This document shows positions 9,990 to 32,903 of a stretch of DNA of 33,481 bases, piece after piece. A model generated the notes under the pieces. It had not been told where the DNA came from. It worked only from the letters and a program-made list of their open reading frames with translations, and did not search any database. This DNA is from Planctomycetota bacterium (GTDB lineage Bacteria; JAJVIF01; JAPKYR01), in assembly GCA_030614715.1 (NCBI GenBank), contig JAUWTM010000023.1:1-33481 (forward strand), in the 5' to 3' direction. Both the position numbers and the translations under genes were made by a program. The stretch's first letter is position 1, and each line of letters opens with the position of its first letter.

Positions 9990-10787
9990 TTGGCGATACT
10001 TGAGACGGAATCCCTTGTAAAACGTTTCGGATCACTGACCGCGGTCGATGATTTCACGATCTCGCTCGAAACCGGGAATGTTTTCGGCCTGCTCGGACCC
10101 AACGGAGCGGGAAAATCGACGGTTATCAAGATCCTGACGACGTTGATACCGCCCACGTCGGGACGTGGATTCATCGCCGGGTACGATGTCGTTCGACGCG
10201 CGTCGGAGGTGCGGCGTCACATCGGTTACGTACCGCAGCTGATCTCCGCGGACGGCCACCTGACCGGATACGAGAACCTTCTGATCACGGCGAAGCTGTA
10301 CGATCTGCCAGCCGGGACGCGCGATCAGGAGCTCCGCGACGCGCTTGATTTCATGGGGCTTTCGGACGCAGCGGGGAAACTGGTCAGGTACTATTCCGGG
10401 GGCATGATCAGGAGGCTTGAGATCGCGCAATCGATGCTTCACCGTCCCAGCATGCTTTTCCTCGATGAGCCCACGATCGGGCTCGATCCGCTGGCGCGAA
10501 AAATGGTCTGGGAGCACGTGCAACAGCTCAAGTCGAAATACAACACGACGATTCTGCTGACAACCCACCTTATGGAGGAAGCTGAGCGCCTCTGCGACCT
10601 TATCGCGATCATGCATCTCGGGAAAGTGGTCGCGATCGGTACGCCCGACGAGTTGAAAACGGCGATCGGGACCGAAAATCCGACGCTGGATGACGTATTC
10701 ATCCATTTCACGGGAGATTCGCTCGAGTCGGGAGGTGGGTACCGTGACACAGCCAGGACACGTCGAACAGCCCGTCGGCTTGGCTAA
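9990..10787 (+). CDS. ABC-2-type exporter, ATP-binding subunit
   Basis: The gene uses a TTG start preceded by GGAGGAG. The 265-residue product is a complete ABC ATPase: Walker A GPNGAGKST (36-44), Q-loop Gln83 in YVPQ, signature YSGGM (135-139), Walker B MLFLDE (155-160) and switch His193 in TTH. The sequence after Walker B (PTIGLDPLAR) and the C-terminal TLDDVF are typical of DrrA-type subunits that power ABC-2 permeases. It should drive export of a hydrophobic compound, drug or glycan; the substrate cannot be told. The last 44 bases overlap the permease gene, so the two are translationally linked. Confidence 0.92.
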   Translation: MAILETESLVKRFGSLTAVDDFTISLETGNVFGLLGPNGAGKSTVIKILTTLIPPTSGRGFIAGYDVVRRASEVRRHIGYVPQLISADGHLTGYENLLITAKLYDLPAGTRDQELRDALDFMGLSDAAGKLVRYYSGGMIRRLEIAQSMLHRPSMLFLDEPTIGLDPLARKMVWEHVQQLKSKYNTTILLTTHLMEEAERLCDLIAIMHLGKVVAIGTPDELKTAIGTENPTLDDVFIHFTGDSLESGGGYRDTARTRRTARRLG

Positions 10788-11571
10788 CCTGCCCGGAGCG
10801 GTTCTGAATTATATCCGCAAGACGTTCGTGATTGTCGAGCTTGAGACGCGCAAGCTCGTGCACGATCCGATAATCCTGCTTACGCGTGCGGTGCAGCCCG
10901 CGCTCTGGCTCCTGATTTTCGGGCAGGTGATCGGACGGCTGCGCGCGTTTCCGACAGGCGAGATGGACTATGTCACTTTCATGACCCCCGGCATACTCGC
11001 GCAGAGCGTGCTGTTTATCTCGATCTTCTTCGGCATTTCGGTGCTGTGGGAACGCGATCTCGGGATCACTCACAAGCTGCTTGTGTCGCCGACACCGAGG
11101 ACCGCGCTGGTTCTGGGTAAGGCACTGTCGGCGGGAGTGAGGGGAATCGCGCAGGCGGTCGTGGTGTATATAATCGCGCTCCTGACCGGTGTGAAGATGA
11201 ACTGGAATCCGATGGCGATACTGGGAGTAATTACCACGATAATCATCGCGGCGTCATTTTTCTCCACGTTCTCAATGATAATCGCGTGCCTTGTGAAGAC
11301 GAGGGAGCGGTTCATGGGTATCGGGCAGGTGATGACGATGCCGCTGTTCTTCGCGAGCAACGCGATTTACCCGATATCGGTCATGCCGTCATGGCTGCAG
11401 GTAGTGTCGAAGGTAAATCCGCTGACGTACGTGGTGGACGCACTGAGGGCGTTGATGGTGCAGGGAGGTGAGAGCATGTTCGGGCTGGGAATGGATTACG
11501 GGATCATGCTGGCGTGGACGGTAGTGCTTGTGCTTATTGGCGGGAGAGTGTATCCGAATGTCGTGAGGTAG
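10744..11571 (+). CDS. ABC-2-type exporter, permease subunit
   Basis: The GTG at 10744 is chosen because GGAGGT (10731-10736) lies just upstream; a longer frame from 10690 would run deep into the ATPase gene. The 275-residue product has about six membrane helices, starting near LTRAVQPALWLLIFGQVI. It contains the ABC-2 hallmarks MTPGILAQSVLF, a cytoplasmic ERDLG...LLVSPTPR segment, and PLFFASNAIYP followed by VNPLTYVVDALR. It is the DrrB-type partner of the preceding ATPase and forms the transmembrane channel. The following 80 bases show no strong terminator. Confidence 0.92.
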   Translation: MTQPGHVEQPVGLANLPGAVLNYIRKTFVIVELETRKLVHDPIILLTRAVQPALWLLIFGQVIGRLRAFPTGEMDYVTFMTPGILAQSVLFISIFFGISVLWERDLGITHKLLVSPTPRTALVLGKALSAGVRGIAQAVVVYIIALLTGVKMNWNPMAILGVITTIIIAASFFSTFSMIIACLVKTRERFMGIGQVMTMPLFFASNAIYPISVMPSWLQVVSKVNPLTYVVDALRALMVQGGESMFGLGMDYGIMLAWTVVLVLIGGRVYPNVVR

Positions 11572-13065: not shown

Positions 13066-14481
13066 TCAATCAATCAAATCGTCGGATACGCCGATGTTTT
13101 CGCCTGCGTGGAATCCGGCCCAGGCGGGTGGGGACTTAACCGGGGGCTTTACACCATAGAAAAGATCGTCCATCCTCGCGAAGAGGGTCCGTGAAATGGA
13201 ATTCCGGCTGACCGCCTCTGTGATGAGTTTGTGGGGAAGGGTTTTTGCGTGGCTCCACGGGCACACTCTCATGCAGATCGCGCAGTCGGTGCCGATCTTA
13301 TGCCAGTATTCGTGGCATGTATCGGTGTCGATGACCCATCTGAGCGACCCGTTGACCTCAGTTCGTTTGTCGAGCGGGATTGAGTTCGACGGGCAGCAGT
13401 GAGCGCACTTCAGGCATTTACCGCAGAAATCGACAATCCCGATATCGACTGGTTTATCAGGAATGAGTGGGATATTGGTCGTTACCGCACCAAGCCTGAC
13501 CCTCGGACCGTACTCCTTCGTGATGAGGTATCCCATCCTGCTTAACTCGCCGAGCCCCGCGTCGATGGCAAGCGGAACGACCATCGTGTCGTATCGCGCC
13601 ATCTGGTTCGACTTCGCCTGCCAGCCCATGTTGGCGATGAACTGGGCGAGATGTCCTGAAATGTACGCGCCTTTTGCGTATTTCTGAAGGGACTCCATGA
13701 TGGTCGGACTGAGAGGGCTAGCTCCGATTATGTCGAAGTCCATTTCAACTGCAAAAACGATGGCGTACCTGTGGTCGAGTTGAATGTCCGCGCCCCAGTC
13801 GCCGGATCGGACGCCACTTTTACCCCTGTGGGAGTAGATCCAGAGTGGATTCAGCTCGGTTATCCCGACGAGAACCGCCCCGAGCCTTTTTGCGAAGCCC
13901 TTGACGCGCACAGTTGCATCCTCCGGGCTGATATCTGTCCTTACATCTGAAACAGGAGGGAGTATCGTGTCAGGTCCGGCCAGTTTGCTGGCAATCGTGT
14001 CCGACGCGCGTGCCATCGCGAGATTCGGTGACCGTCCGGCACGGGCAGACTTGCTCACAGGCTTACTACTCACCCCAGGCTCAGCAGGTTTCTCCTCCAC
14101 AGCTTCTATTTTTTGCCTGTAGATCCTTGAGAACACGGTGTCACGTTCGTCGACGCGTTTGATGTCACCGATAATCAGGCCCTGAGTACCCTTGAGGGCG
14201 TCGGGATTCCCACCGACAGGCAGCAGCAGGAGCAGTGTCAGTACCGGGATCGAAATTAGACCGAGGATCAGGATCCAGAAGCCAATGCCTGCATCGAAGA
14301 AGTGGATCCGGTTGAGAATCAGGAAGGCAGTGAACAGGATCAGGGTGATCGCGAAGAGTATGCCAGCGTAGAGACTTGCACGTTTCTCCTTTTCCCAGAT
14401 GCTGGAGATGAGAAAGCTCAAGGCAAGGAGCGTAATGAGAACAAATGCAGCTTCCAATATGATTACTAAGAATTTGACCAT
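13066..14481 (-). CDS. Reductive-dehalogenase-like protein with N-terminal membrane anchor
   Basis: The 471-residue product begins with three membrane helices (about 2-28, 36-56, 64-90) and then a basic, disordered linker (about 105-190). A catalytic domain of the RdhA type follows: DAGLGELSRMGYLITKEYGP (308-325), then RVRLGAV, and two ferredoxin-like motifs. The first is C353-xx-C356-xx-C359-xxx-C363-P; the second is Cys389 plus C400-xx-C403-xxx-C407-P. RdhA proteins use cobalamin and two 4Fe-4S clusters to remove halogens from organic compounds. Typical respiratory members have a Tat signal and a separate RdhB anchor. Here there is no twin-arginine motif and no RdhB gene; the helices are fused on. 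A QueG-type role is less likely given the iron-sulfur spacing. The natural substrate is unknown. Confidence 0.85.
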   Translation of the reverse strand: MVKFLVIILEAAFVLITLLALSFLISSIWEKEKRASLYAGILFAITLILFTAFLILNRIHFFDAGIGFWILILGLISIPVLTLLLLLPVGGNPDALKGTQGLIIGDIKRVDERDTVFSRIYRQKIEAVEEKPAEPGVSSKPVSKSARAGRSPNLAMARASDTIASKLAGPDTILPPVSDVRTDISPEDATVRVKGFAKRLGAVLVGITELNPLWIYSHRGKSGVRSGDWGADIQLDHRYAIVFAVEMDFDIIGASPLSPTIMESLQKYAKGAYISGHLAQFIANMGWQAKSNQMARYDTMVVPLAIDAGLGELSRMGYLITKEYGPRVRLGAVTTNIPLIPDKPVDIGIVDFCGKCLKCAHCCPSNSIPLDKRTEVNGSLRWVIDTDTCHEYWHKIGTDCAICMRVCPWSHAKTLPHKLITEAVSRNSISRTLFARMDDLFYGVKPPVKSPPAWAGFHAGENIGVSDDLID

Positions 14482-14688: not shown

Positions 14689-17600
14689 ATGAATCGACTT
14701 TCGATCCTCCTGATTACATTACTAATCCTGGTGTTATTATCGTCTGGCTGCCAGGGCTCAGGATCGGACCCAGTTACAGCGGGTCTGCCGGGAAACAGTG
14801 TCGCGCTGAACAACGATGCATCGGTCCATCAGTGCCTTGGATACTACAGCCTGATTGTAGATAAAATTAATATGACCGCCGAGGTGCTGCCGCTCAGGGC
14901 AGGGACGTGGCATTTCAACCTGACCGGGGTCCTTAACAGCACGATGGGCATTGGTGTTGTAGGTGTACCGGGTGAAGCTGATCCCCTTAACGGCCTGTTC
15001 GTTTTCGACATAACACTAACTCACCCGTTTGAGACCAGTCCGCAGCTTGCCGGATTTGACGTAAAGGGAATATTGATGGCTCCCGGAACACTGGGGGTCG
15101 GTGCCCTGATGTTCTCAGACGCAGACGAAACACGATTGGAAAATGCAGATGGGTTTACGCGATGGTGGAATCCGACGGAGTTCACCACACCGGGAATGTT
15201 CGGGTACACGGAGGGCAGTATTCCTCATTCAGCAGCAGGACTTCTGACTGCGACGGTGAATCCGTACAAGCTGCACTGTGACATCCTTGAGGCATTGGAT
15301 TCGCTTGCTTTTCCTGCCGCTGAACCGCTCGACAGCGATACGGGCAGGGCAGTTTTCACCGCCGGTAGCGCGAATACACGAAGATATTACATCAGATTCC
15401 CGCTGGATCCCGGGCCACAGGCAATTTTCGGATACGCAGTCGACTGCTCGTGGAATCCTCCTGTTCCGAACCCTCCCGCTGAAGTGCCGGATGATTTCCC
15501 GATGAACGCGAATCAACCGGAACCGTGGAGGGTAAGTTTTCAACCCGTGGTGAATACACTCTATTACGACGCAGATGCTGTTCCCGGTGGAGTCGGAGGA
15601 GGCGTTCTCAGGCTGCAGGCAAATATCCATGACTGGCAGGGTCAGGCCGCCGGAAACAATGAGGCTGAGATAGCCGCGGTGCAGATCTATGCTCCTGATT
15701 TAATGGCGAGTGGCGTTGACGCGGTTTTCGTTAACGAAACCGAGACAAAAGCAAGGTATTCAGTTGACCTGACAGGCCTTGCCGAGCCTTCTGATGCGGG
15801 GGAGGTCCAGGTAATCTGTCGCGTGGAATCTGCGGAAGGAAATTACACGCAGGCAGCGGCTGTTGCACCGGATGAACCGATATCCTCGTTCATGGTACTG
15901 ACGCTGGACATTCCCGATCCTGAGTGCGCGGTCGATGCTAACAACGACTGGCTCGAAGCAGTTGACGTTGCGTCAGGTGATGTGGTCACGGATCAGGTCT
16001 GCCTGCCGGACGACTACAGGGACTTCTTCGCGTACGACGTGCCGATCGGCAATGAAGTTGAGGGCTCCTTCGACCTCTATTGTGACGCTGAACCTACCAC
16101 CCTTGGGCTTTACACGTCTGATCAGACCCTTATTGCAGAGGCGGACGTGGCTGCCGGGTATGCAACCATATCTGTTGATTCGCTCGACCTGGTGCCCGAT
16201 GATTATTATCTGCGAGTGCTGACCTCAAATTCGTCGCAGGTCGCACCGTATCTGCTCGAGATAAATGCAGCGCTGGTCAGTGTCAGTCCGAACCTTGTCG
16301 ATGTCACCCCTGCTGACTTGTATATCGAACCGCAATGGCCCTGGTTGCACGAAGATATCCTTTACCTCGTGGGCAGGGGCATATGGACGTTCGATATGTC
16401 CGATCCGTCGAATCCTGTATACCTCGGGGGGCAAATCTTTCGTGAATTCAATTACATGGACGATGCTGCCTTCAATTATCCGTACTGTTATTTCGCATAT
16501 CACCTGTCTATGGAATACAGCAACCTGTGTTTAATTGATTTCAGTGATCCGTCGGATCCGATAATGACCACTGATCTTTATACATTCCACGAAGAAGCAC
16601 GCGAATTAACGATGAACTCAACACATATCTACGCTGCGATGGACCTCTCCATCGATCCTAACCTGCGTTTCCTCGACTATTCATCCGATCCTTTGTCTCC
16701 GGTTGAGGTCGGGAGTTATCTTCTTGATGAACAGGTAAATGACCTTGAATTGATAGATCCTGAGGGTCCTGATACGCAGCTCGTTGTTGGTATTGTTGAC
16801 AGACTTCTGTTCCTGGGTGTTGAAGATCCGTCATCGGTGACTCATGAAGGAACGGTCTCCCTATTTCTAGACTTCCTGCTGAACGATCTGGTTGTCGATG
16901 GTAATTTCATATATGTTGTCGATGATAACGGATCGGCCGGATGGCTTGATATCTTCGAGCAGACCGATACCGGTCCGATCGCACGTGGTTCGGAATTACT
17001 GCTGGGAACTGCTGAGTACATTGATGTAGCATATCCGTATGCTTACGTGGGTGACGATATTGAAGGTCTGGCAGTCGTTGATGTCAGCATTCCGGATACC
17101 CCAAACCATATTGCCTCAGCTCCAACGGTCAACTATGCTGAAAGGGTGGCAACTGGTGACGACTATGTGTGTGTCCTTCCAAACCAGGGAACGGTCCAGA
17201 CGTTCGATGTAACAGTACCTGCAGCTCCAACGGCGATTTCAAGGATATGGTCGGTAAACGATGCCAACACCCTGTTAGGGTTTAGTGGTGATTACCTGTA
17301 TGTCGCGGATAGTTCCCCACCCCCAGCGATCGACCTCATAGATATCTCCGATCCGGCAAGTGCTGAGATAATCTCTGAATTCCTTTTGCCCGACTGGCCG
17401 AATAAAATGGCGCTAGGCGGGGATGTGCTTGCTTACTCACACTATGACTGGGTTCGCTGTGTGGATGTTAGCGATCCCTTTGACATGCAGATCGGAGCTG
17501 GTGAATATAACACACCTGATAACGTTGACCTGATTGTGACCTACGACCATTACGCATACGCTATGTACAATGATGTCGGTGATAACTATCTCCAGACCAT

Positions 17601-18129
17601 TGATATTGCGGATTACAATGCACCGACGTACGTGACCACCAGATCCTGGGACGACAGCAAAGTACGTGATGTAGCCTTCTATGGTGAGGTGATGTACATA
17701 CCGACAGCTGACGCTGTCAGGATATACGAGTTGACATCACCGGGATATCCTAATTACCTGGGATCGTATGCTGTTGCCGACCAGATAAATGACGTGGAAA
17801 TTCAGGGTCACTACCTTTACATTTTCATGTATATGTCAAGTCTTGTGGAAGTACTGGACCTGACTGTCCCGATTAATCCTACTCTGGCAGGCTCAGGTCT
17901 CAACGGGACAACGAACTCCAGGTATATGGCTCTAGACGGGCAATACGCGTATTTTGCTGGGAATTTAATTAATGATATCCACGCTGCATTAATTTACCCA
18001 CCCGGAACAGTGTCGCCTCTTGGTGTCGTATATTCTGAGGCATTTCAGTGCAATAACATATATATAGACGATGGTTACCTGTACCAGGAGACTCAGGGTC
18101 GGGGTGTTTCTATTTTTGACCTGTATTGA
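14689..18129 (+). CDS. Giant lipoprotein with PPC-like domain and LVIVD beta-propeller
   Basis: AGGAGAG precedes the ATG. The 1146-residue product has a lipoprotein signal ending LSSGC (Cys21). Residues about 45-260 form a module shared with the lipoprotein at 21360: a GYY opening, ITLTHPF, GFDVKGI, DGFTRWWNPTEF, SANTRRYYIRFP, then VDCSW. A PPC-like beta domain follows (about 415-535). The C-terminal half (about 545-1146) contains at least nine LVIVD-type repeats, for example FDMSDPSNPVYLGG, LIDFSDPSDPI, VVDVSIPDTPNHIAS and LIDISDPASAE. These repeats build beta-propellers and occur in surface or secreted proteins. It is probably a binding or adhesion protein, with no catalytic motif seen. It ends three bases before the convergent Lgt-like gene. 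Confidence 0.85.
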   Translation: MNRLSILLITLLILVLLSSGCQGSGSDPVTAGLPGNSVALNNDASVHQCLGYYSLIVDKINMTAEVLPLRAGTWHFNLTGVLNSTMGIGVVGVPGEADPLNGLFVFDITLTHPFETSPQLAGFDVKGILMAPGTLGVGALMFSDADETRLENADGFTRWWNPTEFTTPGMFGYTEGSIPHSAAGLLTATVNPYKLHCDILEALDSLAFPAAEPLDSDTGRAVFTAGSANTRRYYIRFPLDPGPQAIFGYAVDCSWNPPVPNPPAEVPDDFPMNANQPEPWRVSFQPVVNTLYYDADAVPGGVGGGVLRLQANIHDWQGQAAGNNEAEIAAVQIYAPDLMASGVDAVFVNETETKARYSVDLTGLAEPSDAGEVQVICRVESAEGNYTQAAAVAPDEPISSFMVLTLDIPDPECAVDANNDWLEAVDVASGDVVTDQVCLPDDYRDFFAYDVPIGNEVEGSFDLYCDAEPTTLGLYTSDQTLIAEADVAAGYATISVDSLDLVPDDYYLRVLTSNSSQVAPYLLEINAALVSVSPNLVDVTPADLYIEPQWPWLHEDILYLVGRGIWTFDMSDPSNPVYLGGQIFREFNYMDDAAFNYPYCYFAYHLSMEYSNLCLIDFSDPSDPIMTTDLYTFHEEARELTMNSTHIYAAMDLSIDPNLRFLDYSSDPLSPVEVGSYLLDEQVNDLELIDPEGPDTQLVVGIVDRLLFLGVEDPSSVTHEGTVSLFLDFLLNDLVVDGNFIYVVDDNGSAGWLDIFEQTDTGPIARGSELLLGTAEYIDVAYPYAYVGDDIEGLAVVDVSIPDTPNHIASAPTVNYAERVATGDDYVCVLPNQGTVQTFDVTVPAAPTAISRIWSVNDANTLLGFSGDYLYVADSSPPPAIDLIDISDPASAEIISEFLLPDWPNKMALGGDVLAYSHYDWVRCVDVSDPFDMQIGAGEYNTPDNVDLIVTYDHYAYAMYNDVGDNYLQTIDIADYNAPTYVTTRSWDDSKVRDVAFYGEVMYIPTADAVRIYELTSPGYPNYLGSYAVADQINDVEIQGHYLYIFMYMSSLVEVLDLTVPINPTLAGSGLNGTTNSRYMALDGQYAYFAGNLINDIHAALIYPPGTVSPLGVVYSEAFQCNNIYIDDGYLYQETQGRGVSIFDLY

Positions 18130-20602: not shown

Positions 20603-21310
20603 ATGAAAATCAGAAGAGTAATATCCCTGACAATTCTATTTGCATTTATAGTCACTCTTTACACTGGAATAATGTTGTTTATCTGTCCACACGGACGTAT
20701 CGCCGAATGGACCGGCTGGAGAATGCTGGGGATGTCCAAAGGGGATTACGGCGTTGTACATGCAACTTTCATGATCATTTTTATCATCGCCGGAATCTGG
20801 CATATCGTCCTGAACTGGAATCCGATACTGAATTACATGAAGGATAAATCCAGGAAGCTGAGAATCTTCACACCTGAATTCACGCTGGCATTGGTTATTT
20901 GTGTCGTTTTCTTCGTGGGAGCTTTAATGGGACTCCCCCCGTTCAAACAATACATTGACGCCGAGGAAAACATCAAGAACTACTGGGAGGCCAGGGACGG
21001 ATCTCCCCCGTGGGGGCATGCGGAGCTTAACTCGATCGATAAATTCTGCAGAAGTATGGTGGATTACCAGGAAACCGAGAAAGGGATTTTCATAACGCTC
21101 GATCCCCGGGAAGCATTGGCAAAGCTTCAGGAAGCGGGTATCGAAGTGGATGGAGTGAATGAAACTCTCTTCGATGTAGCTGAAGCGAACCGCACGTCCG
21201 CACAGGCTCTGTCAGAGATTATCATGACAGCTGCTGTACCAGTCGAGACCGAAAACATAAGCACCAGCAATCCGGACCCACATGGCAACGACCACATAAC
21301 TGATGAGTAG
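20603..21310 (+). CDS. DUF4405 membrane protein (b-type cytochrome-like)
   Basis: The 235-residue product has the typical DUF4405 order. The first membrane helix (about 7-28) ends GIMLFICPHGRIAEWTGWRMLG. A second helix carries two histidines, HATFMIIFIIAGIWHIVLNW (about 53-72), well placed to bind heme. A third helix (about 94-112) ends GLPPFKQYIDAEENIK. PPWGHAEL and a C-terminal segment TLFDVAEANRTSAQALSEII follow, as in relatives. DUF4405 members are thought to be membrane heme proteins of respiratory or sulfur-related electron transfer; their exact reactions are not established. The acidic tail lies outside the membrane. The gene stands alone, converging on the lipoprotein gene at 21360. 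Confidence 0.8.
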   Translation: MKIRRVISLTILFAFIVTLYTGIMLFICPHGRIAEWTGWRMLGMSKGDYGVVHATFMIIFIIAGIWHIVLNWNPILNYMKDKSRKLRIFTPEFTLALVICVVFFVGALMGLPPFKQYIDAEENIKNYWEARDGSPPWGHAELNSIDKFCRSMVDYQETEKGIFITLDPREALAKLQEAGIEVDGVNETLFDVAEANRTSAQALSEIIMTAAVPVETENISTSNPDPHGNDHITDE

Positions 21311-26636: not shown

Positions 26637-26653
26637 CTGCGCAACTTTGCAGA
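26636..26653 (+). promoter_or_regulatory. Candidate repressor operator overlapping the -10 box
   Basis: TCTGC-gcaacttt-GCAGA is an inverted repeat that begins in the -10 box and covers the expected transcription start. An ArsR-type dimer bound here would block the promoter. It is a short repeat, so the call is tentative. Confidence 0.45.
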
Positions 26654-26670
26654 TATGCAGGGATTACCGA

Positions 26671-27000
26671 ATGGAAGATAAAATACCCGAAATCTGCAGA
26701 CGTCACTCCGACTTCTGCTCGATCTTCACAAATCCCAGGCGACTCATGATCCTGAAGGCGCTTGGTGACGGCGAGAGAAGCGTCGGGGATATAGCAAAAG
26801 AGGTCGGGATCCCCGATTACACGGTCTCGCAGCACTTGCGGATAATGAAGGATCGAGGCGCGGTCCGTGCCCGTAAGGAAGGCCGCATGGTGTACTACAG
26901 GGTCGCAAGCCAGAAGTTTATCGAAGGCGCCAGCCTTATACGTGAAGGCCTGCTGGATGTCATAGAGGAAACAAGTCAGTTGATAGGTAAAGGGGATTAA
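26671..27000 (+). CDS. ArsR-family transcriptional regulator (candidate sulfur-operon repressor)
   Basis: The ATG at 26671 is chosen because AGGGA (26659-26663) lies seven bases upstream; a TTG at 26647 would add eight residues. The 109-residue product has the ArsR winged-helix fold: FTNPRRLMILKAL (19-31), a recognition helix region TVSQHLRIMKDRGAV (51-65), and the wing RKEGRMVYYRV (68-78). The usual metal site in the third helix (ELCVC) is absent. Two N-terminal cysteines, Cys9 and Cys16, are present instead and could respond to persulfide, as cysteine pairs do in SqrR/BigR-type regulators, although at other positions. First in the sulfur operon, so probably a self-regulating repressor. Confidence 0.85.
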   Translation: MEDKIPEICRRHSDFCSIFTNPRRLMILKALGDGERSVGDIAKEVGIPDYTVSQHLRIMKDRGAVRARKEGRMVYYRVASQKFIEGASLIREGLLDVIEETSQLIGKGD

Positions 27001-27078
27001 TTTTTTTTAAGGACAGGATATTTATTTTCGGTTAAATAACTAATTTTACTAACGAATGAGAGCAGAAGGAGCTCCATA

Positions 27079-28308
27079 GTGAAGAAACTGGTGATACTCG
27101 GAGGCGGGACCGCTGGAACGATAATGGCCACAAGGCTGAACGATGCACTAGATTCAGGCGAGTGGCACATTACGGTGGTCGACCAGTTTGAAACACATTA
27201 CTACCAGCCGGGATTCCTGTTCATTCCGTTCGGAATTTACAGCCGGTCGGATGTAATGAAGCCGAAGCGGGACTTCATCCCGTCGGGTGTCGAGGTCATT
27301 TTCTCACCGATCGAGGTTATCGAGCCGAATGAGAACCGTGTGAAGCTCGATAACGGCACGATTCTCAACTACGACTGGTTAATAATTGCTACCGGAGCGA
27401 AAGTGGTTCCGGGGGAGACGGAAGGGCTGGCCGATCAGGGCTGGTTCAAAGATATTTTCGATTTCTATACGATCGAGGGTGCATCGGCGCTGCAGAGACA
27501 CCTGAAATTCTGGGAAGGCGGGCGCCTTGTAATCAACATATCCGAGATGCCTATCAAGTGTCCGGTCGCACCGCTGGAATTCGCATTCCTTGCCGACTGG
27601 TGGTTCACGGAGCAGGGGATTCGGGACAAGGTGGAGATCGATTTTGTAACACCGCTGCCCGGTGCGTTCACCAGGCCAAGGGCATCGAGTGTACTTGGTG
27701 ACATCCTGCAGAAGAAGAACGTCAATCTTACACCGGACTTTTCAATAGCCAGGGTCGACAACGACAGGAAGAAGATAATCGACTGGGAAGAGAAGGAAAT
27801 CGATTACGATCTCCTTGTTACGATTCCAGTTAACATGGGTGATGCGGTTATCGCGAGGTCGGGAATGGGCGACGATCTGAATTTCGTGCCGACCGACAAG
27901 CAGACGCTTCAATCGCTCAAGTACGAGAACATTTTTGTCATCGGCGACGCAACAAATCTGCCAAGTTCGAAGGCCGGGTCGGTTGCGCATTTTGAATCGG
28001 ATATCCTTTTTGAAAATTTCCTCGCGGCTGTTGAAGACCGTCCGATGCGTGCTGCATTCGACGGTCACGCGAACTGTTATATTGAATCGGGCTTTGGAAA
28101 GGGAATCCTGATTGATTTCAACTATGACACGGAGCCGCTGCCCGGCAAGTACCCGCTACCCGGAATCGGGCCGTTTTCCCTGCTCGAAGAGACCAAGATG
28201 AACCATTACGGGAAGGTGATGTTCCGCTGGATGTACTGGCACCTGCTGCTTCGAGGCGTGGAGCTCCCGATTGAATCCCAGATGCTGATGGCAGGCAAGA
28301 GGTTGTGA
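27079..28308 (+). CDS. Sulfide:quinone oxidoreductase-type flavoprotein
   Basis: The GTG start follows AAGGAG by seven bases. The 409-residue product is a two-dinucleotide-domain flavoprotein. The FAD site LGGGTAG lies at 7-13, YYQPGFLFIPFG at 41-52, IIATGA at 102-107, and the second FAD contact FVIGDAT at 286-292. It carries Cys161 (IKCPVAP) and Cys333 (NCYIESG), matching the positions of the two cysteines that form the polysulfide bridge in SQR; the third, less conserved cysteine is missing. SQR oxidises sulfide to sulfane sulfur at the membrane and passes electrons to quinone. The C-terminus (MFRWMYWHLLLRG) is amphipathic and may touch the membrane. It is followed after one base by DUF1641. 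Confidence 0.85.
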   Translation: MKKLVILGGGTAGTIMATRLNDALDSGEWHITVVDQFETHYYQPGFLFIPFGIYSRSDVMKPKRDFIPSGVEVIFSPIEVIEPNENRVKLDNGTILNYDWLIIATGAKVVPGETEGLADQGWFKDIFDFYTIEGASALQRHLKFWEGGRLVINISEMPIKCPVAPLEFAFLADWWFTEQGIRDKVEIDFVTPLPGAFTRPRASSVLGDILQKKNVNLTPDFSIARVDNDRKKIIDWEEKEIDYDLLVTIPVNMGDAVIARSGMGDDLNFVPTDKQTLQSLKYENIFVIGDATNLPSSKAGSVAHFESDILFENFLAAVEDRPMRAAFDGHANCYIESGFGKGILIDFNYDTEPLPGKYPLPGIGPFSLLEETKMNHYGKVMFRWMYWHLLLRGVELPIESQMLMAGKRL

Positions 28309-28309
28309 C

Positions 28310-29005
28310 ATGGACACGACTACAGTAAATACAGAACTGGCCGGCATCAACGCAAAGCTCGACGTAATCCTGGAGGAGGTCGATGCGCTCAAACGTCAGC
28401 GACTTGCACTGGCAGAGTTGAGAGACGACCTGTCGCTGATCGCGCGGGACATGTTCAATTCAGCGGTTGTGGAGCTCGAGGACGTAGCACCGTTCGTAAA
28501 TTCCGGGGATTTCATACATCTTGTCAAGAAACTCCTCAGGAACACGGCATCGATTACTGAATCAATTACGCGCTTCGAGGCTGCACTCGATATTGTCGAG
28601 ACAGCGAGTCCGATCGGGAAGGACCTGTTCAGGGACACGCTGCACAAACTCGATGACATGGATCAGAAGGGGTACTTCGAGCTTGCAGGATCAGTGGTAG
28701 AGACAGTCGATACGGTCGTTGAGAACATGTGCCGCGAGGACTGCAGTCAATTTGGCAACAAGGTAGTAATACCGATGGTGGATGTCATGAAATCGGTGGC
28801 ATGTTCCGATGTAATACCCGCATTGCAGCGTACAGTAAGTGAAATTGAGACAAAGGATCCAGAGGATTTTGAGATATCACCGTTGAAGGCATTACAGATT
28901 CTGAACTCACCGGAAGTCCGGGGTCTCCTGGGCTTCATGGTGATGTTCCTGCAGACCTTAGCTGTAGAGATAAAGAAAAACACAGAAACCAAGGAGAATT
29001 CATAG
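28310..29005 (+). CDS. DUF1641 protein, sulfur-operon partner
   Basis: The ATG lies one base after the flavoprotein's stop, with AAGAGG in the end of that gene. The 231-residue product is almost entirely helical and soluble. An N-terminal coiled coil (about 8-45, LDVILEEVDALKRQRLALAE) is followed by several amphipathic helices and the C-terminal hallmark of DUF1641, LNSPEVRGLLGFMVMFLQTL (about 200-220). DUF1641 genes are frequently next to SQR-type flavoproteins, and a role as membrane-binding or electron-transfer partner has been proposed but not proven. Cysteines in MCREDCSQ and VACSD are available for sulfur chemistry. Tight spacing on both sides marks it as part of the same transcript. 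Confidence 0.85.
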   Translation: MDTTTVNTELAGINAKLDVILEEVDALKRQRLALAELRDDLSLIARDMFNSAVVELEDVAPFVNSGDFIHLVKKLLRNTASITESITRFEAALDIVETASPIGKDLFRDTLHKLDDMDQKGYFELAGSVVETVDTVVENMCREDCSQFGNKVVIPMVDVMKSVACSDVIPALQRTVSEIETKDPEDFEISPLKALQILNSPEVRGLLGFMVMFLQTLAVEIKKNTETKENS

Positions 29006-29006
29006 G

Positions 29007-29324
29007 ATGGCAACTGAAGAGATCGCAGGACACTCAGTAGAGTTCGACACAGAGGGTTTCATGGTCGATCACACCTTATGGAATGAAGATATCGCCCGTG
29101 AAATAGCACAGAAGGAAGGTATTGGTGAACTCACTGAACGTCATTTTGACGTACTGAAATTCATGAGGCAGGAGTTCAAGGAGAAAGGCGACGGTCCATC
29201 CATCCGGGCATTAAAAAACCGTGGTGGAATACCAACCAGGGAACTGTACGAACTTTTCCCGGGGGGCCCGGCCAAGAAAGCAGCGCGAATCGCCGGAATC
29301 AAGAAGCCGACGGGTTGTGTGTGA
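29007..29324 (+). CDS. DsrC/TusE-family sulfur carrier with a single C-terminal cysteine
   Basis: AAGGAG precedes the ATG. The 105-residue product is a full DsrC-fold protein with DTEGFMVDHTLWNEDIAREIA, LTERHFDVLKFMRQEF and the C-terminal arm PGGPAKKAARIAGIKKPTGCV. DsrC itself has two cysteines in the arm, CysA (second-last residue) and CysB eleven residues earlier; these form a trisulfide. Here CysA is present (Cys104) but the CysB position is alanine (Ala93), so the cysteine pattern is that of TusE-like single-cysteine carriers. It would hold a persulfide on Cys104. The SQR and DsrE neighbours argue for sulfur trafficking in energy metabolism rather than tRNA thiolation; this is inference. 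Confidence 0.88.
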   Translation: MATEEIAGHSVEFDTEGFMVDHTLWNEDIAREIAQKEGIGELTERHFDVLKFMRQEFKEKGDGPSIRALKNRGGIPTRELYELFPGGPAKKAARIAGIKKPTGCV

Positions 29325-29340
29325 TAGAAGGAGTTACATG

Positions 29341-29838
29341 ATGGAACCTGAACCAATCAAAAAAGTATCAATTGTTGTATCGAAGGGATCACTTGACGGT
29401 ATCTATCCCGGCCTGATAATGGCCAACGGTGCGCGTATGGCGGGCATCGAAGCAATGATGTTCTTCACGTTCTTCGGACTTGAGGGAATCATGAAGGAGA
29501 CGATGGACCACTTGAAGGTCGCGACAGTCGGGAATCCCGCGATGAGAGCTCCGAAGGACTGGGGCGGATGGCGTATTCCCACCGTTCTCGGTGGAGTTCC
29601 GGGAATGTCCACGTTCGCGACCCACATGATGAAGCAGGAGATGGAAAACCTCGATATCCCGCCGGTAGGTGAGTTTATCGAGATGATCCACGACTCCAGC
29701 GGTGAGATCTACGCATGTAAAGCCGCCATGGACATGTTCAAATTCAAGCCTGAGGACCTTTGCGACGATGTCGACGGCATTCTCACTGTCGGGGATTTCT
29801 ATGAGAAATCCGCCGGTGCGCAGATAATTTTCACGTGA
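29341..29838 (+). CDS. DsrE/DsrF-like sulfur-transfer protein
   Basis: Two ATGs stand in tandem (29338 and 29341). The second is seven bases from AAGGAG and is chosen; an earlier frame start at 29221 overlaps the DsrC-like gene and is not real. The 165-residue product has the DsrE-like opening IKKVSIVVSKGSLDGIYPGL, AGIEAMMFFTFFG, and the conserved cysteine in GEIYACKAAMDMF (Cys126), which carries sulfane sulfur in family members. Cys141 is additional. A small domain of this type usually hands sulfur to DsrC or TusA-like carriers. It is the last gene of the operon; a strong terminator follows. Confidence 0.87.
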   Translation: MEPEPIKKVSIVVSKGSLDGIYPGLIMANGARMAGIEAMMFFTFFGLEGIMKETMDHLKVATVGNPAMRAPKDWGGWRIPTVLGGVPGMSTFATHMMKQEMENLDIPPVGEFIEMIHDSSGEIYACKAAMDMFKFKPEDLCDDVDGILTVGDFYEKSAGAQIIFT

Positions 29839-29937
29839 TAGACCGTCAGTTTCCCCGAGCAGTACGGCAAACTTCTGTTTTGCATGTCGGGGATGACAAT
29901 GACATATACTAAGTACGTTAATCAGTAGACTTCAGGA

Positions 29938-29967
29938 AATCCCCCGGTTACCTTGCCGGGGGATTTT
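29938..29967 (+). terminator. Intrinsic terminator of the sulfur operon
   Basis: AATCCCCCGG (29938-29947) pairs perfectly with CCGGGGGATT (29956-29965) around an 8-base loop, and TTTT (29964-29967) overlaps its end. It lies 100 bases after the DsrE-like stop. Confidence 0.88.
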
Positions 29968-30018
29968 CATATTATCAGGATGACTCAGACTAAAATTTAT
30001 TCAGGAACTTAATGACTC

Positions 30019-30027
30019 TGGTATAAT
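30019..30027 (+). promoter_or_regulatory. Extended -10 promoter of the DOMON-b561 gene
   Basis: TGGTATAAT is a perfect -10 box with the TGN extension, 33 bases before the ATG at 30060. The -35 is weak (TTCAGG at 30000-30005). It shows that this gene is transcribed separately from the sulfur operon. Confidence 0.6.
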
Positions 30028-30059
30028 GATCTGCAACATATTTTGTCTGTGGGGGAGTT

Positions 30060-31154
30060 ATGAGAAAGCTGCCTGTAGTCCTTCCCATGCTGCTACTGCT
30101 CGTTCTGGGAGTCGCGTTCCTTCAGCACCTGCCGATTGAAAAGTCGCGCGCCCAGGAAACTCCACAGGACGATTCAAACGATGCTGAAATCCAGGATGTT
30201 GAAACAGTCACAGGTATTGACGGTAATATCTCCGAAGGAGAGTATGAGTCAGGTGCGACCTTCCTCGATGGTACATTCGAGCTCTCCTGGAGTACAGACG
30301 GTGAATACATTTTAATCAGCATGGCTGCGGAGACGACGGGATGGGTGGCGATCGGTTTCGATCCGGACAACCGTATGGAAGGCGCTGATATGGTCATAGG
30401 ATGGGTAGCAGATTCCGGTGAAGCTCAGTGCGTTGATGCGTACGCGACTGGTCCGACCGGTCCGCATCCACCGGATACAGAACTCGGAGGGGAGGATTCA
30501 ATACTTGAATATTCTGGTGCTGAGGGTGAGGGCAGAACGGTAATAGAGTTTATGCGCCCGCTTGCAGGTGACGATGAGTTTGACAAGTCGATACCCTTGA
30601 CAGGCGAACTGGTGGTGATTGTCGCGTTTGGCTCGGATGACGAGTTCAGCCAGCGGCACACGTCGAGGGAAACAGGCGTGATTGTGGTGAGTCCGGATGA
30701 GGATGTCGGGGCGGAAACCACAACAGATGCTGAAGAGATCACGGCGCCTGGCGCCGTTTCCATTAAATGGCAATTCCACGCGGGACTGATGGGGCTAGCT
30801 GTTTGTCTGATAGCATTAACTGTGTATCTGGCTAAACGCAGGCGAAGCTTCAGCGGATGGATAACAATGCACAGAAGCGCGGGAGTGTCTGCTGCAACAG
30901 TTGCCATACTTGGTTTGCTATCGGCAATTGTGATGATCAACAGCAGGGGAAGCGGTCACTTTGCGATCCCGCACACGTGGCTTGGTGCAATCGGGATTAT
31001 CCTGATTGTCGCAACGCCGGTGATCGGGACAGTCGCGGTGAATCTGATGGAAAAGGGAAAGCACATGAGAATCATACACAGGTGGTTCGGATGGTGTACG
31101 GCAGTGATCGTGGTGCTGACGCTTTTGATCGGGATCAGTATGGTTGCAGGATAG
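30060..31154 (+). CDS. DOMON domain-cytochrome b561-like fusion protein
   Basis: GGGGGAG lies close to the ATG. The 364-residue product has an N-terminal signal or anchor helix (about 4-22). An extracytoplasmic DOMON domain (about 50-210) follows, with ETTGWVAIGFDPDNRMEGADM and the ATGPTGPHPPDTELGG strand-loop typical of the family. The rest is a four-helix cytochrome b561-like domain (about 237-258, 275-293, 305-327, 341-361). His240, His271, His305 and His340 are placed for two hemes. DOMON domains bind heme or sugar, and b561 domains carry electrons across the membrane. The fusion should pass electrons between periplasm and cytoplasmic or quinone side. The direction and partners are unknown. 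An array of tandem repeats starts directly at its stop codon. Confidence 0.8.
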   Translation: MRKLPVVLPMLLLLVLGVAFLQHLPIEKSRAQETPQDDSNDAEIQDVETVTGIDGNISEGEYESGATFLDGTFELSWSTDGEYILISMAAETTGWVAIGFDPDNRMEGADMVIGWVADSGEAQCVDAYATGPTGPHPPDTELGGEDSILEYSGAEGEGRTVIEFMRPLAGDDEFDKSIPLTGELVVIVAFGSDDEFSQRHTSRETGVIVVSPDEDVGAETTTDAEEITAPGAVSIKWQFHAGLMGLAVCLIALTVYLAKRRRSFSGWITMHRSAGVSAATVAILGLLSAIVMINSRGSGHFAIPHTWLGAIGIILIVATPVIGTVAVNLMEKGKHMRIIHRWFGWCTAVIVVLTLLIGISMVAG

Positions 31155-31412
31155 GTGAAGATGCGGACGAGACGTCCACGAGACGGCCGGCGGGACGCCC
31201 GCGCTACGTCCGAGCTACGTCCGCGTTACGAAGTAGTTAAGTGAAGATGCAGACGAGACGTCCACGAGACGGCCGGCGGGACGCCCGCGCTACGTCCGAG
31301 CTACATCTGCGTTACGAAGTAGTTAAGTGAAGATGCAGACGGGACGTCCACGAGACGGCCGGCGGGACGCCCGCGCTACGGCTGCGCTACGTCAGCGCTA
31401 CGGCAGAGCTAC
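31155..31412. repeat. Three 86-bp GC-rich tandem repeats
   Basis: Units start with GTGAAGATG at 31155, 31241 and 31327, each 86 bases long; the first two differ at a few positions and the third diverges after about 55 bases. Each contains the hairpin GCGGG-acg-CCCGC (31190-31202 in unit 1) and runs of the submotif GCTACGTCC. Units 1 and 2 each carry a 27-codon ATG frame closed by the TGA of the next unit's GTGAAG. There are no unique spacers, so this is not a CRISPR array. It sits in the 3' flank of the DOMON-b561 gene, just before a terminator. Confidence 0.85.
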
Positions 31413-31437
31413 GAGCCAGTTTGTGGACTGGAAAATG

Positions 31438-31466
31438 AAAAACCCCCTCGATATGAGGGGGTTTGT
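31438..31466. terminator. Bidirectional intrinsic terminator
   Basis: AAACCCCCTC (31440-31449) pairs with GAGGGGGTTT (31455-31464) around a 5-base loop. T's follow on the plus strand (GTGTTTT), and an A-run lies before it for the minus strand. It separates two convergent genes. Confidence 0.88.
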
Positions 31467-31487
31467 GTTTTCGTTTGTTCTGACTTC

Positions 31488-32903
31488 TTACTGAATGAAC
31501 ATGGTCGCGAAGTCAACGCGGATCGGTGCATTGACGTAAACCGTTCCGACATCCTCATCTTCCGGTGTGATCCTGTAGAACAGCTGGGCTGTGATGTACA
31601 GGCTGTCATCGGTCTCGGGGAGGATTGTCGAGAAGCTCTCCGTGCGGATTTCACCCGGCAGGAGGGTCGTGTCGCGAAGGACCTGTGAGGCTTCCCAGTT
31701 AGCAAATGTCGGCTCACCGAACCTGTCACCAAGGACCCTCTCGTAGACACGACTGCCTTCCCATAGTGTCTCGCCCTCGGAACCCTTCAGCCTGACGACC
31801 AGGACAAGCTGCCTCATTCCGTTGGATGACGGGTAGTTGTGACCAGCGCGTGCATTTGCCACATCGACGTCGATGAAGATCTCGTCACCCTGGATGTCAG
31901 TTGCTACTTCAACCGTGGCTGATTCAAGCATGAAGTCGTAGTTATGACCGCCGCCGAGGTCGTGGCTCCTGATGTCAGGCCGCCAGTCACCGCGAAGGCT
32001 CGATCGTCCTGAGTAAGCAGGCATGTGGCAGTCCTGGCACATGACCCTGTTGGCAGGGCTTGCGTACGCACTTGCATACCATTCATTGTAAGTATTGTAA
32101 ACGTTAAAGCCCCAGGGATTTTCATACTGGTGGCAGCCCTTGCAGAACATGCTGTCCTGGCTAAGCCGGCTGTACTCGATAGCATGGGACGAGGTCGTTG
32201 CGAACGGTCTCGGTCCCTGCTTGATGTGACCCCAGTAGATTACGTAGCCCTCGGTGTCCGTATAATCCACAATCGTGTGGCAGTAATCACAGAATATCCC
32301 GTCGATATTGTTTTCGAGGAAAAGGTCCTCATCGCGCATGAAATCAGCGCCCGGAGCATGACAGCGCATGCAGTTAACATGGATCTTGCCGTCGTAGATT
32401 CCATCAGCCATCAGGCCGTCACCGTGGATCTGGACTGATATCTCCTGCTCCCTGTCTTCAACTGTGAAGACGGGGATTTGAATATCCTCCGGTTCTACGA
32501 CACGGGCTTCCCGCCATCGATAGCGTCGAAGCTCCCGTCCTGTCAACCCCTCTATCTCTTCGATTTCTTCCTCTTCGAAGTAGTAATCCTCGTTGTTCAG
32601 ATAACGCTGGTACTCGCCATACTGTGCCTGGAAAATGGGTTCACGCCAGGCCTGGGCATGCATCGAGCGGGACCACTGTCCGAAGAACTCCATGTGACAA
32701 GAGGAGCACAGACTGTTGGGCTGAAAATGAGACTCATTGGAAAGGACCATAATCATCCTCTCATCGATCGCCGCGACAGCGTCTACATAAAGAGGACTTA
32801 TCCTGGTGGCCGGTCGAGCCATCAGTGTTGAAACTCCCAGGACGAGAAGTAACAGGATTACTAGGCTCATCCATACGGTTTTAATGCGAGTTGGCTGAGT
32901 CAT
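31488..32903 (-). CDS. Pentaheme cytochrome c, exported
   Basis: The 471-residue product has an N-terminal hydrophobic segment (about 10-29) that acts as signal or anchor. It has five CxxCH heme sites: CSSCH (66-70), CMRCH (178-182), CDYCH (205-209), CKGCH (254-258) and CQDCH (289-293). Distal histidines such as MHAQAW, SSHAIEYSR and GGGHNYDF can serve as axial ligands. The heme region (about 60-300) is followed by a beta-sandwich-like C-terminal domain (about 320-471, beginning ATVEVATD). The layout resembles the cytochrome c554/multiheme family that shuttles electrons for respiratory oxidoreductases. It lacks the CxxCK active site of NrfA. Electron partners might be the DOMON-b561 protein opposite, which is inference. 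The bidirectional terminator is shared. Confidence 0.85.
   Translation of the reverse strand: MTQPTRIKTVWMSLVILLLLVLGVSTLMARPATRISPLYVDAVAAIDERMIMVLSNESHFQPNSLCSSCHMEFFGQWSRSMHAQAWREPIFQAQYGEYQRYLNNEDYYFEEEEIEEIEGLTGRELRRYRWREARVVEPEDIQIPVFTVEDREQEISVQIHGDGLMADGIYDGKIHVNCMRCHAPGADFMRDEDLFLENNIDGIFCDYCHTIVDYTDTEGYVIYWGHIKQGPRPFATTSSHAIEYSRLSQDSMFCKGCHQYENPWGFNVYNTYNEWYASAYASPANRVMCQDCHMPAYSGRSSLRGDWRPDIRSHDLGGGHNYDFMLESATVEVATDIQGDEIFIDVDVANARAGHNYPSSNGMRQLVLVVRLKGSEGETLWEGSRVYERVLGDRFGEPTFANWEASQVLRDTTLLPGEIRTESFSTILPETDDSLYITAQLFYRITPEDEDVGTVYVNAPIRVDFATMFIQ

Follow-up and report, generated by a model that had tools for sequence, protein, structure and literature searches.

The locus and the encoded protein

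The window analysed here is a stretch of 33,481 nucleotides from a Planctomycetota bacterium (GenBank assembly GCA_030614715.1, contig JAUWTM010000023.1, positions 1 to 33,481, forward strand), and its subject is an open reading frame (ORF) of 471 amino acids at 13066-14481 on the minus strand, starting with ATG, that encodes a reductive dehalogenase (RDase) catalytic domain behind three membrane helices. We propose that this protein is probably a membrane-tethered reductive dehalogenase with a corrinoid and two 4Fe-4S clusters, belonging to the published class of hybrid RDases and having its active site in the cytoplasm. It is a solitary gene: its upstream neighbour, a lipoprotein gene, is divergent, and 554 bases separate it from the next same-strand gene downstream. 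Its features are, in window coordinates:

13066..14481, minus strand: hybrid reductive dehalogenase gene, 471 amino acids (ORF; TIGR02486 match of 174.9 bits against a cut-off of 160.35)
14395..14478, minus strand: transmembrane helix 1, residues 2-29 (hydropathy and AlphaFold model; aligns with the second transmembrane helix, TM2, of RdhB)
14386..14394, minus strand: EXE motif E30-K31-E32, in the loop that joins helix 1 to helix 2 (matched to the EXE loop of RdhB in the alignment)
14308..14385, minus strand: transmembrane helix 2, residues 33-58 (hydropathy and AlphaFold model; first part aligns with the start of RdhB TM3)
14224..14289, minus strand: transmembrane helix 3, residues 65-86 (hydropathy and AlphaFold model; RdhB counterpart not found)
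14125..14151, minus strand: DERDTVFSR motif, residues 111-119, past helix 3 (pattern in 80/81 hybrids)
13930..14124, minus strand: diverged linker, residues 120-184, without the Y..YY..PE segment of the family (residues 131-148 have a predicted local distance difference test score below 50 in the model)
13147..13929, minus strand: RDase catalytic domain, residues 185-445 (Protein Data Bank (PDB) sequence match, alignment and fold)
13678..13680, minus strand: Tyr268, catalytic tyrosine, aligned with SmPceA Tyr246 and DhPceA Tyr337 (alignment)
13495..13497, minus strand: Arg329, aligned with SmPceA Arg305 and DhPceA Arg396 (alignment)
13390..13425, minus strand: 4Fe-4S motif 1, CxxCxxCxxxCP, residues 353-364 (sequence; cysteines in 83/83 hybrid-group domains)
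13258..13317, minus strand: 4Fe-4S motif 2, C389 plus CxxCxxxCP at residues 400-408 (sequence; cysteines in 83/83 hybrid-group domains)
13156..13233, minus strand: His417, Asp438 and Tyr442, counterparts of the DhPceA menaquinone-pocket residues H495, D515 and Y520 (H417 by alignment, D438 and Y442 by spacing only)

The three helices had been noticed in an earlier description of the window made without database searches (the sequence-only reading), and the model places them as listed. The linker, which that reading called long and basic, does precede the catalytic domain, but it is only slightly basic, with 15 lysines and arginines (K/R) against 13 acidic residues (D/E) at residues 88-185 and nine against five at 121-170. 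The protein contains no twin-arginine dipeptide (RR) anywhere and thus lacks the twin-arginine translocation (Tat) signal of classical respiratory RdhA, and a motif-plus-hydropathy filter found no small RdhB-like ORF in the window; both absences were rightly called from the sequence.

A putative reductive dehalogenase of the hybrid class

The similarity of the protein to RDases is far beyond chance, because its match to NCBIfam TIGR02486 has an E value of 3.5e-51, with a bit score above the curated cut-off, and its phmmer match to NpRdhA in the PDB reaches 1.9e-40. Fold comparison likewise gives dehalogenases as the nearest solved structural relatives. The first 4Fe-4S motif reads CGKCLKCAHCCP and the second CAICMRVCP, with the extra Cys 389, and GLGELSRMGYLITKEYGP occupies residues 309-326, as the sequence-only reading had pointed out. 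That reading also left room for a grouping with QueG or another non-dehalogenase clade. QueG carries two 4Fe-4S clusters and cobalamin and is a distant fold relative; the window protein scores 54 bits with the QueG profile TIGR00276, below the 200-bit cut-off, QueG forms a separate branch in both trees described below, and Tyr268, Arg329 and the eight cluster cysteines are all present. The tree, the profile cut-offs and the fold support an RDase domain, not a QueG domain, fused to the membrane helices.

Among 83 distinct hybrid-group domains (the window protein, L007, L063, L094 and L106 included), Tyr268, Arg329, Trp393 and all eight cluster cysteines are invariant, while His417 is found in 81/83, Asp438 in 79/83 and Tyr442 in 81/83. 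The SmPceA numbers Tyr246 and Arg305 are consistent with the chain numbering in the alignment. All five Tat-dependent references have Arg, Trp and His at the Arg329, Trp393 and His417 sites, whereas the six catabolic references all have Lys at the Arg329 site and Arg at the Trp393 site, and neither His417 nor Tyr442 occurs in any of them (0/6 each). The residue set of the hybrids is therefore respiratory and not catabolic. The catabolic NpRdhA/BhbA type (4ras; Comamonas, Ruegeria, Jannaschia, Nitratireductor) has its active-site Lys488 where the window protein and 83/83 domains have arginine; its proteins are 1013-1072 amino acids long in four plasmid records and form their own clade in both trees, outside which the hybrids fall. 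In DhPceA, Y337 and R396 are essential and His495 lies 2.5 Å from the menaquinone head (PMC10624902); paper and chain numbering of DhPceA differ by an offset of 48, verified on Arg396.

Hybrid putative RDases were described by Atashgahi and colleagues in 2019, in 69 table rows from pure cultures and metagenome-assembled genomes, as having three helices with an EXE motif between the first two, both 4Fe-4S motifs, and neither a Tat signal nor an RdhB (PMC6797604). The window protein shares these features, as well as the separate clade and the hosts in Desulfobacterota and candidate phyla, and it is thus a further member of that class and not a new kind of protein. It is unlike the published hybrids in lacking the conserved linker segment and in that the searched relatives of its own lineage are without the gene. 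The sequence-only reading held such proteins to be known in a few genomes, which is too low in view of the 69 rows and of at least 495 relatives in the scan below. The 2019 study listed the export, substrate and role of hybrids as open questions (PMC6797604), and the cryo-EM paper on PceA mentions fused RDases as unassessed (PMC10624902). To this known class we add the cytoplasmic orientation and the inversion of the hairpin, both of which we infer.

Charge bias and the side of the membrane

Charges were counted in 81 hybrids, 88 minus L007, L008, L009, L010, L063, L094 and L106, which are truncated or without called helices; the 81 comprise 79 distinct N-termini. In 81/81, K/R are more frequent in the EXE loop and the 25 residues past helix 3 than in the N-terminal tail and loop 2, with densities of 0.208 per residue on the catalytic side and 0.067 on the other. 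The EXE loop alone is higher in K/R in 79/81. The count is still 81/81 when the tail is set to 12 residues and the helix window to 17, 19 or 21; by net charge, 77 to 79 of 81 agree. Under the positive-inside rule, this bias places the catalytic domain of the hybrids, and probably that of the window protein, in the cytoplasm, in line with the sequence-only reading. No hybrid (0/81) has RR in the N-terminal tail or loop 2; RR occurs within the first 90 residues in 23/81, in the EXE loop or just past helix 3. A dual Sec/Tat membrane protein would need RR before helix 3. Soluble Tat-less relatives within the hybrid clade also favour the cytoplasm, since with an outside domain each gain or loss of the helices would switch the compartment.

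An RdhB-like hairpin

RdhBs and hybrids share a hairpin centred on E-x-E, with an alanine three residues later in most of them, and E30 is invariant and E32 nearly invariant in A2, the homologue group of the window protein. When profiles were compared with hhalign, the TM2-EXE-TM3 region of six RdhBs (from Sulfurospirillum and Dehalococcoides plasmids, with three from other genomes; about three lineages) aligned with helix 1-EXE-helix 2 of the hybrids at 92.0% (P 6.5e-07), against 2.9% for the region of helices 2-3 and 6.5% for the reversed alignment. A PDB search with a Dehalococcoides RdhB returned weak rhodopsin matches only. The EXE loop of PceA2B2 is at the outer (P) side of the membrane (PMC10624902). 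The K/R count also puts it outside in 6/6 RdhBs, opposite to the hybrids, and this reversal, within a small control, speaks indirectly against an outer-side EXE loop in the hybrids, where the K/R-rich loop is predicted to lie inside. Apparently the hairpin turned over along with the catalytic domain, helix 3 keeping both on one side; judged from sequence, the hybrid thus resembles an inside-out fusion of RdhA and RdhB. Neither an inverted hairpin nor a link to tripartite ATP-independent periplasmic (TRAP) transporters was found stated for hybrids in the available portions of the literature on their topology, TRAP or later hybrids.

Like the menaquinol:organohalide oxidoreductase PceA2B2 (8q4h, PMC10624902), the window protein has the RDase fold, the Tyr/Arg pair, the EXE hairpin, His417 (H495) and probable counterparts of D515 and Y520. 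Unlike PceA2B2, it is one chain and not two, has no Tat signal and has a third helix without an RdhB counterpart, and the EXE hairpin and catalytic domain of the hybrids are apparently on the cytoplasmic side.

Relatives, trees and origin of the window copy

A scan of species genomes gave at least 586 pattern matches and at least 495 relatives of the alignment, fused and unfused together. The best 80 loci were kept, which biases the sample to proteins closely related to the query; nearly all of these are hybrids by motif or helices, with start codons picked by a distance rule. Their record titles include Desulfobacterota, Aminicenantes, Zixibacteria, KSB1, Chloroflexota and others; a phylum tally was discarded because old 'Deltaproteobacteria' titles had been read as Myxococcota.

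A quick tree of 116 rows and a careful tree of 81 rows, its hybrids thinned by hand, were built without the accessions of the 2019 table themselves. The hybrids stand apart from the few classical RDases included (a tree-type search for more in 386 genomes added few), with a Shimodaira-Hasegawa-like approximate likelihood ratio test (SH-aLRT) value of 97 in the quick tree and ultrafast bootstrap/SH-aLRT values of 98/97, soluble relatives inside, in the careful tree. The latter clade, of 47 rows, holds all 40 hybrid-labelled rows (L007, with one helix only, among them), five soluble RDases and two contig-edge fragments, and no row of the Tat group. Several rows of that group have frames truncated by contig ends and owe their label to kinship or to an RdhB close by. 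EX_L003_1, EX_L133_1 and COMP_L035 (long or partial rows) are omitted from the careful tree, and L009 never entered. The five soluble RDases carry the DERD motif near the N-terminus, at most about 30 residues from a possible start, and no Tat motif. The frames of L010 (G035) and L007 (G010) seem truncated or without helices 1 and 2.

Homologues in Desulfobacteraceae and other Deltaproteobacteria share up to 53% identity with the window protein, which falls into their subclade in both trees (quick, SH-aLRT 98, 38 rows; careful, 98/97, 12 rows). Beside the window gene the host genome has two further hits, both weak, one of which groups with QueG; no other RDase match was found in it. Two genomes of the same family and two of the same class gave no RDase match at E<=1e-30, and three of the four have weak matches with QueG-like scores. 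A misbinned contig is unlikely, as the divergent neighbour is one of a family of paralogous lipoproteins present in the host and in both same-family genomes. As this adjacent family is expanded in the lineage, the contig probably belongs to the genome, and transfer is the probable source of the RDase gene. Among 85 proteins, the Y..YY..PE segment after the DERD motif follows a strict pattern in 76 and is still related by eye in eight others, the window protein being the only clear loss. A frameshift behind its odd linker was rejected, since the stretch has stops and no recognisable motif in either of its other two frames, and the catalytic part is intact despite the loss.

Gene neighbourhoods

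The sequence-only reading took the redox genes of the window to make a respiratory or detoxifying role plausible. This argument falls away: an SQR-like gene (27079) and genes for DsrC (29007), a DsrE-like protein (29221), a DOMON/b561 protein (30060) and a multihaem cytochrome (31491) lie more than 12 kb from the solitary RDase gene, and a redox operon with it was rejected. Closer by, at 20603, is a DUF4405 gene, on the other strand and not adjacent.

At 12 of the 80 loci (raw count), the hybrid gene shares its same-strand run with TRAP transporter genes, in both gene orders; an importer encoded beside the enzyme speaks for an active site in the cytoplasm and for a substrate that is soluble and probably anionic. 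Other neighbours in the same run are GntR-type regulators (10), AMP-binding/CoA-ligase-like proteins (5) and molybdopterin oxidoreductases (4), their labels Pfam-checked on one representative each and on two for the molybdopterin enzyme. For 15/80 hybrid genes, counting those at contig ends, the nearest 400 bases hold no neighbour on the same strand; the window locus is like them.

Two RDase types occur together at four loci, where a soluble NpRdhA-type RDase of 395-402 amino acids lies upstream of the hybrid (L039 98-1282, L043 3459-4664, L045 2814-3998, L049 1534-2724); all four group beside the NpRdhA type, and two were confirmed with TIGR02486. At L035 a further RDase-like gene lies upstream of the hybrid at 507-1806, in two overlapping frames of 252 and 210 amino acids.

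Electron donor

The host genome encodes MqnA/MqnD-type proteins, UbiA-type prenyltransferases, TatC and B12-binding domains. With MqnA/D and MenD as the menaquinone markers, 7/32 hybrid-bearing genomes are positive, the host included, four by MqnA/D and three by MenD above the cut-off; a further 20 genomes have sub-cut-off MenD matches only. In this set (G387-G417), 25 of the 32 have neither marker above the cut-off, including the genomes of L047 and L052, which have records titled 'chromosome'; these 25 may have a divergent menaquinone pathway or no quinone. The residues make quinone use by the hybrids plausible, and the same pocket residues are reportedly conserved even in organisms without quinones (PMC10624902). 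Menaquinol is therefore one candidate donor, and ferredoxin or another low-potential donor the other.

Proposed mechanism and alternatives

We propose that helices 1 and 2 with the EXE loop would descend from the RdhB hairpin, which contacts RdhA and encloses the quinone, and that this hairpin would sit the other way up in the membrane. Helix 3 would hold the catalytic domain on the side of the EXE loop, such that the RdhA-RdhB contact could persist with the unit facing inwards, and a Tat signal would be missing because the domain folds and loads its cofactors in the cytoplasm. Electrons would pass through the two clusters to cobalt, and their source would be either menaquinol, via the inverted pocket, or a reductant of the cytoplasm such as ferredoxin. 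Co(I), with Tyr268 and Arg329, would then cleave a carbon-halogen bond in an organohalide taken up by the cell; for some relatives this substrate would probably be an organic acid that a TRAP transporter brings in. A uniform cytoplasmic orientation, if true, would remove the export problem and point to uptake of soluble organohalides, with an energy yield expected to differ from that of classical organohalide respiration; it would also be a case of a membrane hairpin apparently flipped together with its partner domain. The spread of hybrid loci over many phyla bears on natural halogen cycling. It is possible, if doubtful, that the whole clade is a topologically inverted menaquinol:organohalide oxidoreductase, in which a cytosolic RDase captured and flipped the RdhB quinone hairpin, which would now pass electrons to an inward active site fed by importers such as TRAP, organohalides being reduced in the cytoplasm with no proton release outside.

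Several results weigh against the cytoplasmic dehalogenase proposed here. To our knowledge, no hybrid RDase has been assayed, and in the available portions of the literature on hybrids we found no report of dehalogenation by one. The charge bias is statistical and spans sequences related by descent, and the RdhB set opposed to it covers about three lineages only. The soluble members branch at three places in the hybrid clade, two of them on weak forks (83/74 and 95/65). TRAP genes are missing from the same-strand run at 68/80 loci and at the window locus, whose protein is also the one with the lost linker segment. The menaquinone markers are sparse, and the pocket's conservation in organisms without quinones weakens the case for a quinone.

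A catalytic domain facing outwards as in PceA2B2, with the hairpin in its RdhB orientation and export without a Tat signal, would follow from homology to that hairpin alone, and the host has TatC; TMHMM, moreover, split the hybrid C-termini between cytoplasmic and exoplasmic sides, many being exoplasmic (PMC6797604), whereas we read them as uniformly cytoplasmic. The opposite K/R bias in 81/81, the lack of RR before helix 3, the soluble Tat-less relatives and the TRAP importers at 12/80 loci make this arrangement unlikely. Somewhat less unlikely is that fold and location are as proposed and the reaction is another corrinoid-dependent reductive cleavage: the 2019 study had no substrate for any hybrid and remarked on the diverse metabolism of the hosts (PMC6797604), and CoA-ligase-like and molybdopterin enzymes are among the neighbours, but the Tyr/Arg pair of respiratory RDases is invariant, the nearest solved relatives are dehalogenases and the four soluble companions branch next to the NpRdhA type. 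That the window copy is a transferred gene in decay or changed in function would suit a lone gene without operon partner, its lost linker segment and the four related genomes without an RDase match; against an open frame of 471 codons, intact catalytic and cluster residues and a confident model, we consider it improbable. An epoxyqueuosine reductase of the QueG type, to which the weak TIGR00276 similarity might point, has next to no chance given the cut-off and the separate branch.

Other genes in the window

The region 26647-32903 is a possible sulfur-oxidation cluster, comprising an ArsR-type regulator and the SQR-like, DsrC, DsrE-like, DOMON/b561 and multihaem cytochrome c genes named above. 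The SQR-like gene resembles type III sulfide:quinone reductases and matches the selenoprotein subtype NF049943 with 658.8 bits over the full profile in an open frame. The divergent neighbour of the RDase gene (14689-18126, plus strand) encodes a lipoprotein of 1146 amino acids with LVIVD repeats, which has many near full-length paralogues, with at least 17 matches in the genome, itself included, and others in both same-family genomes, a lineage-specific expansion. At 9990-11568 on the plus strand lies an ABC-2 type exporter pair, ATPase and permease in overlapping frames, apparently unrelated to the RDase.
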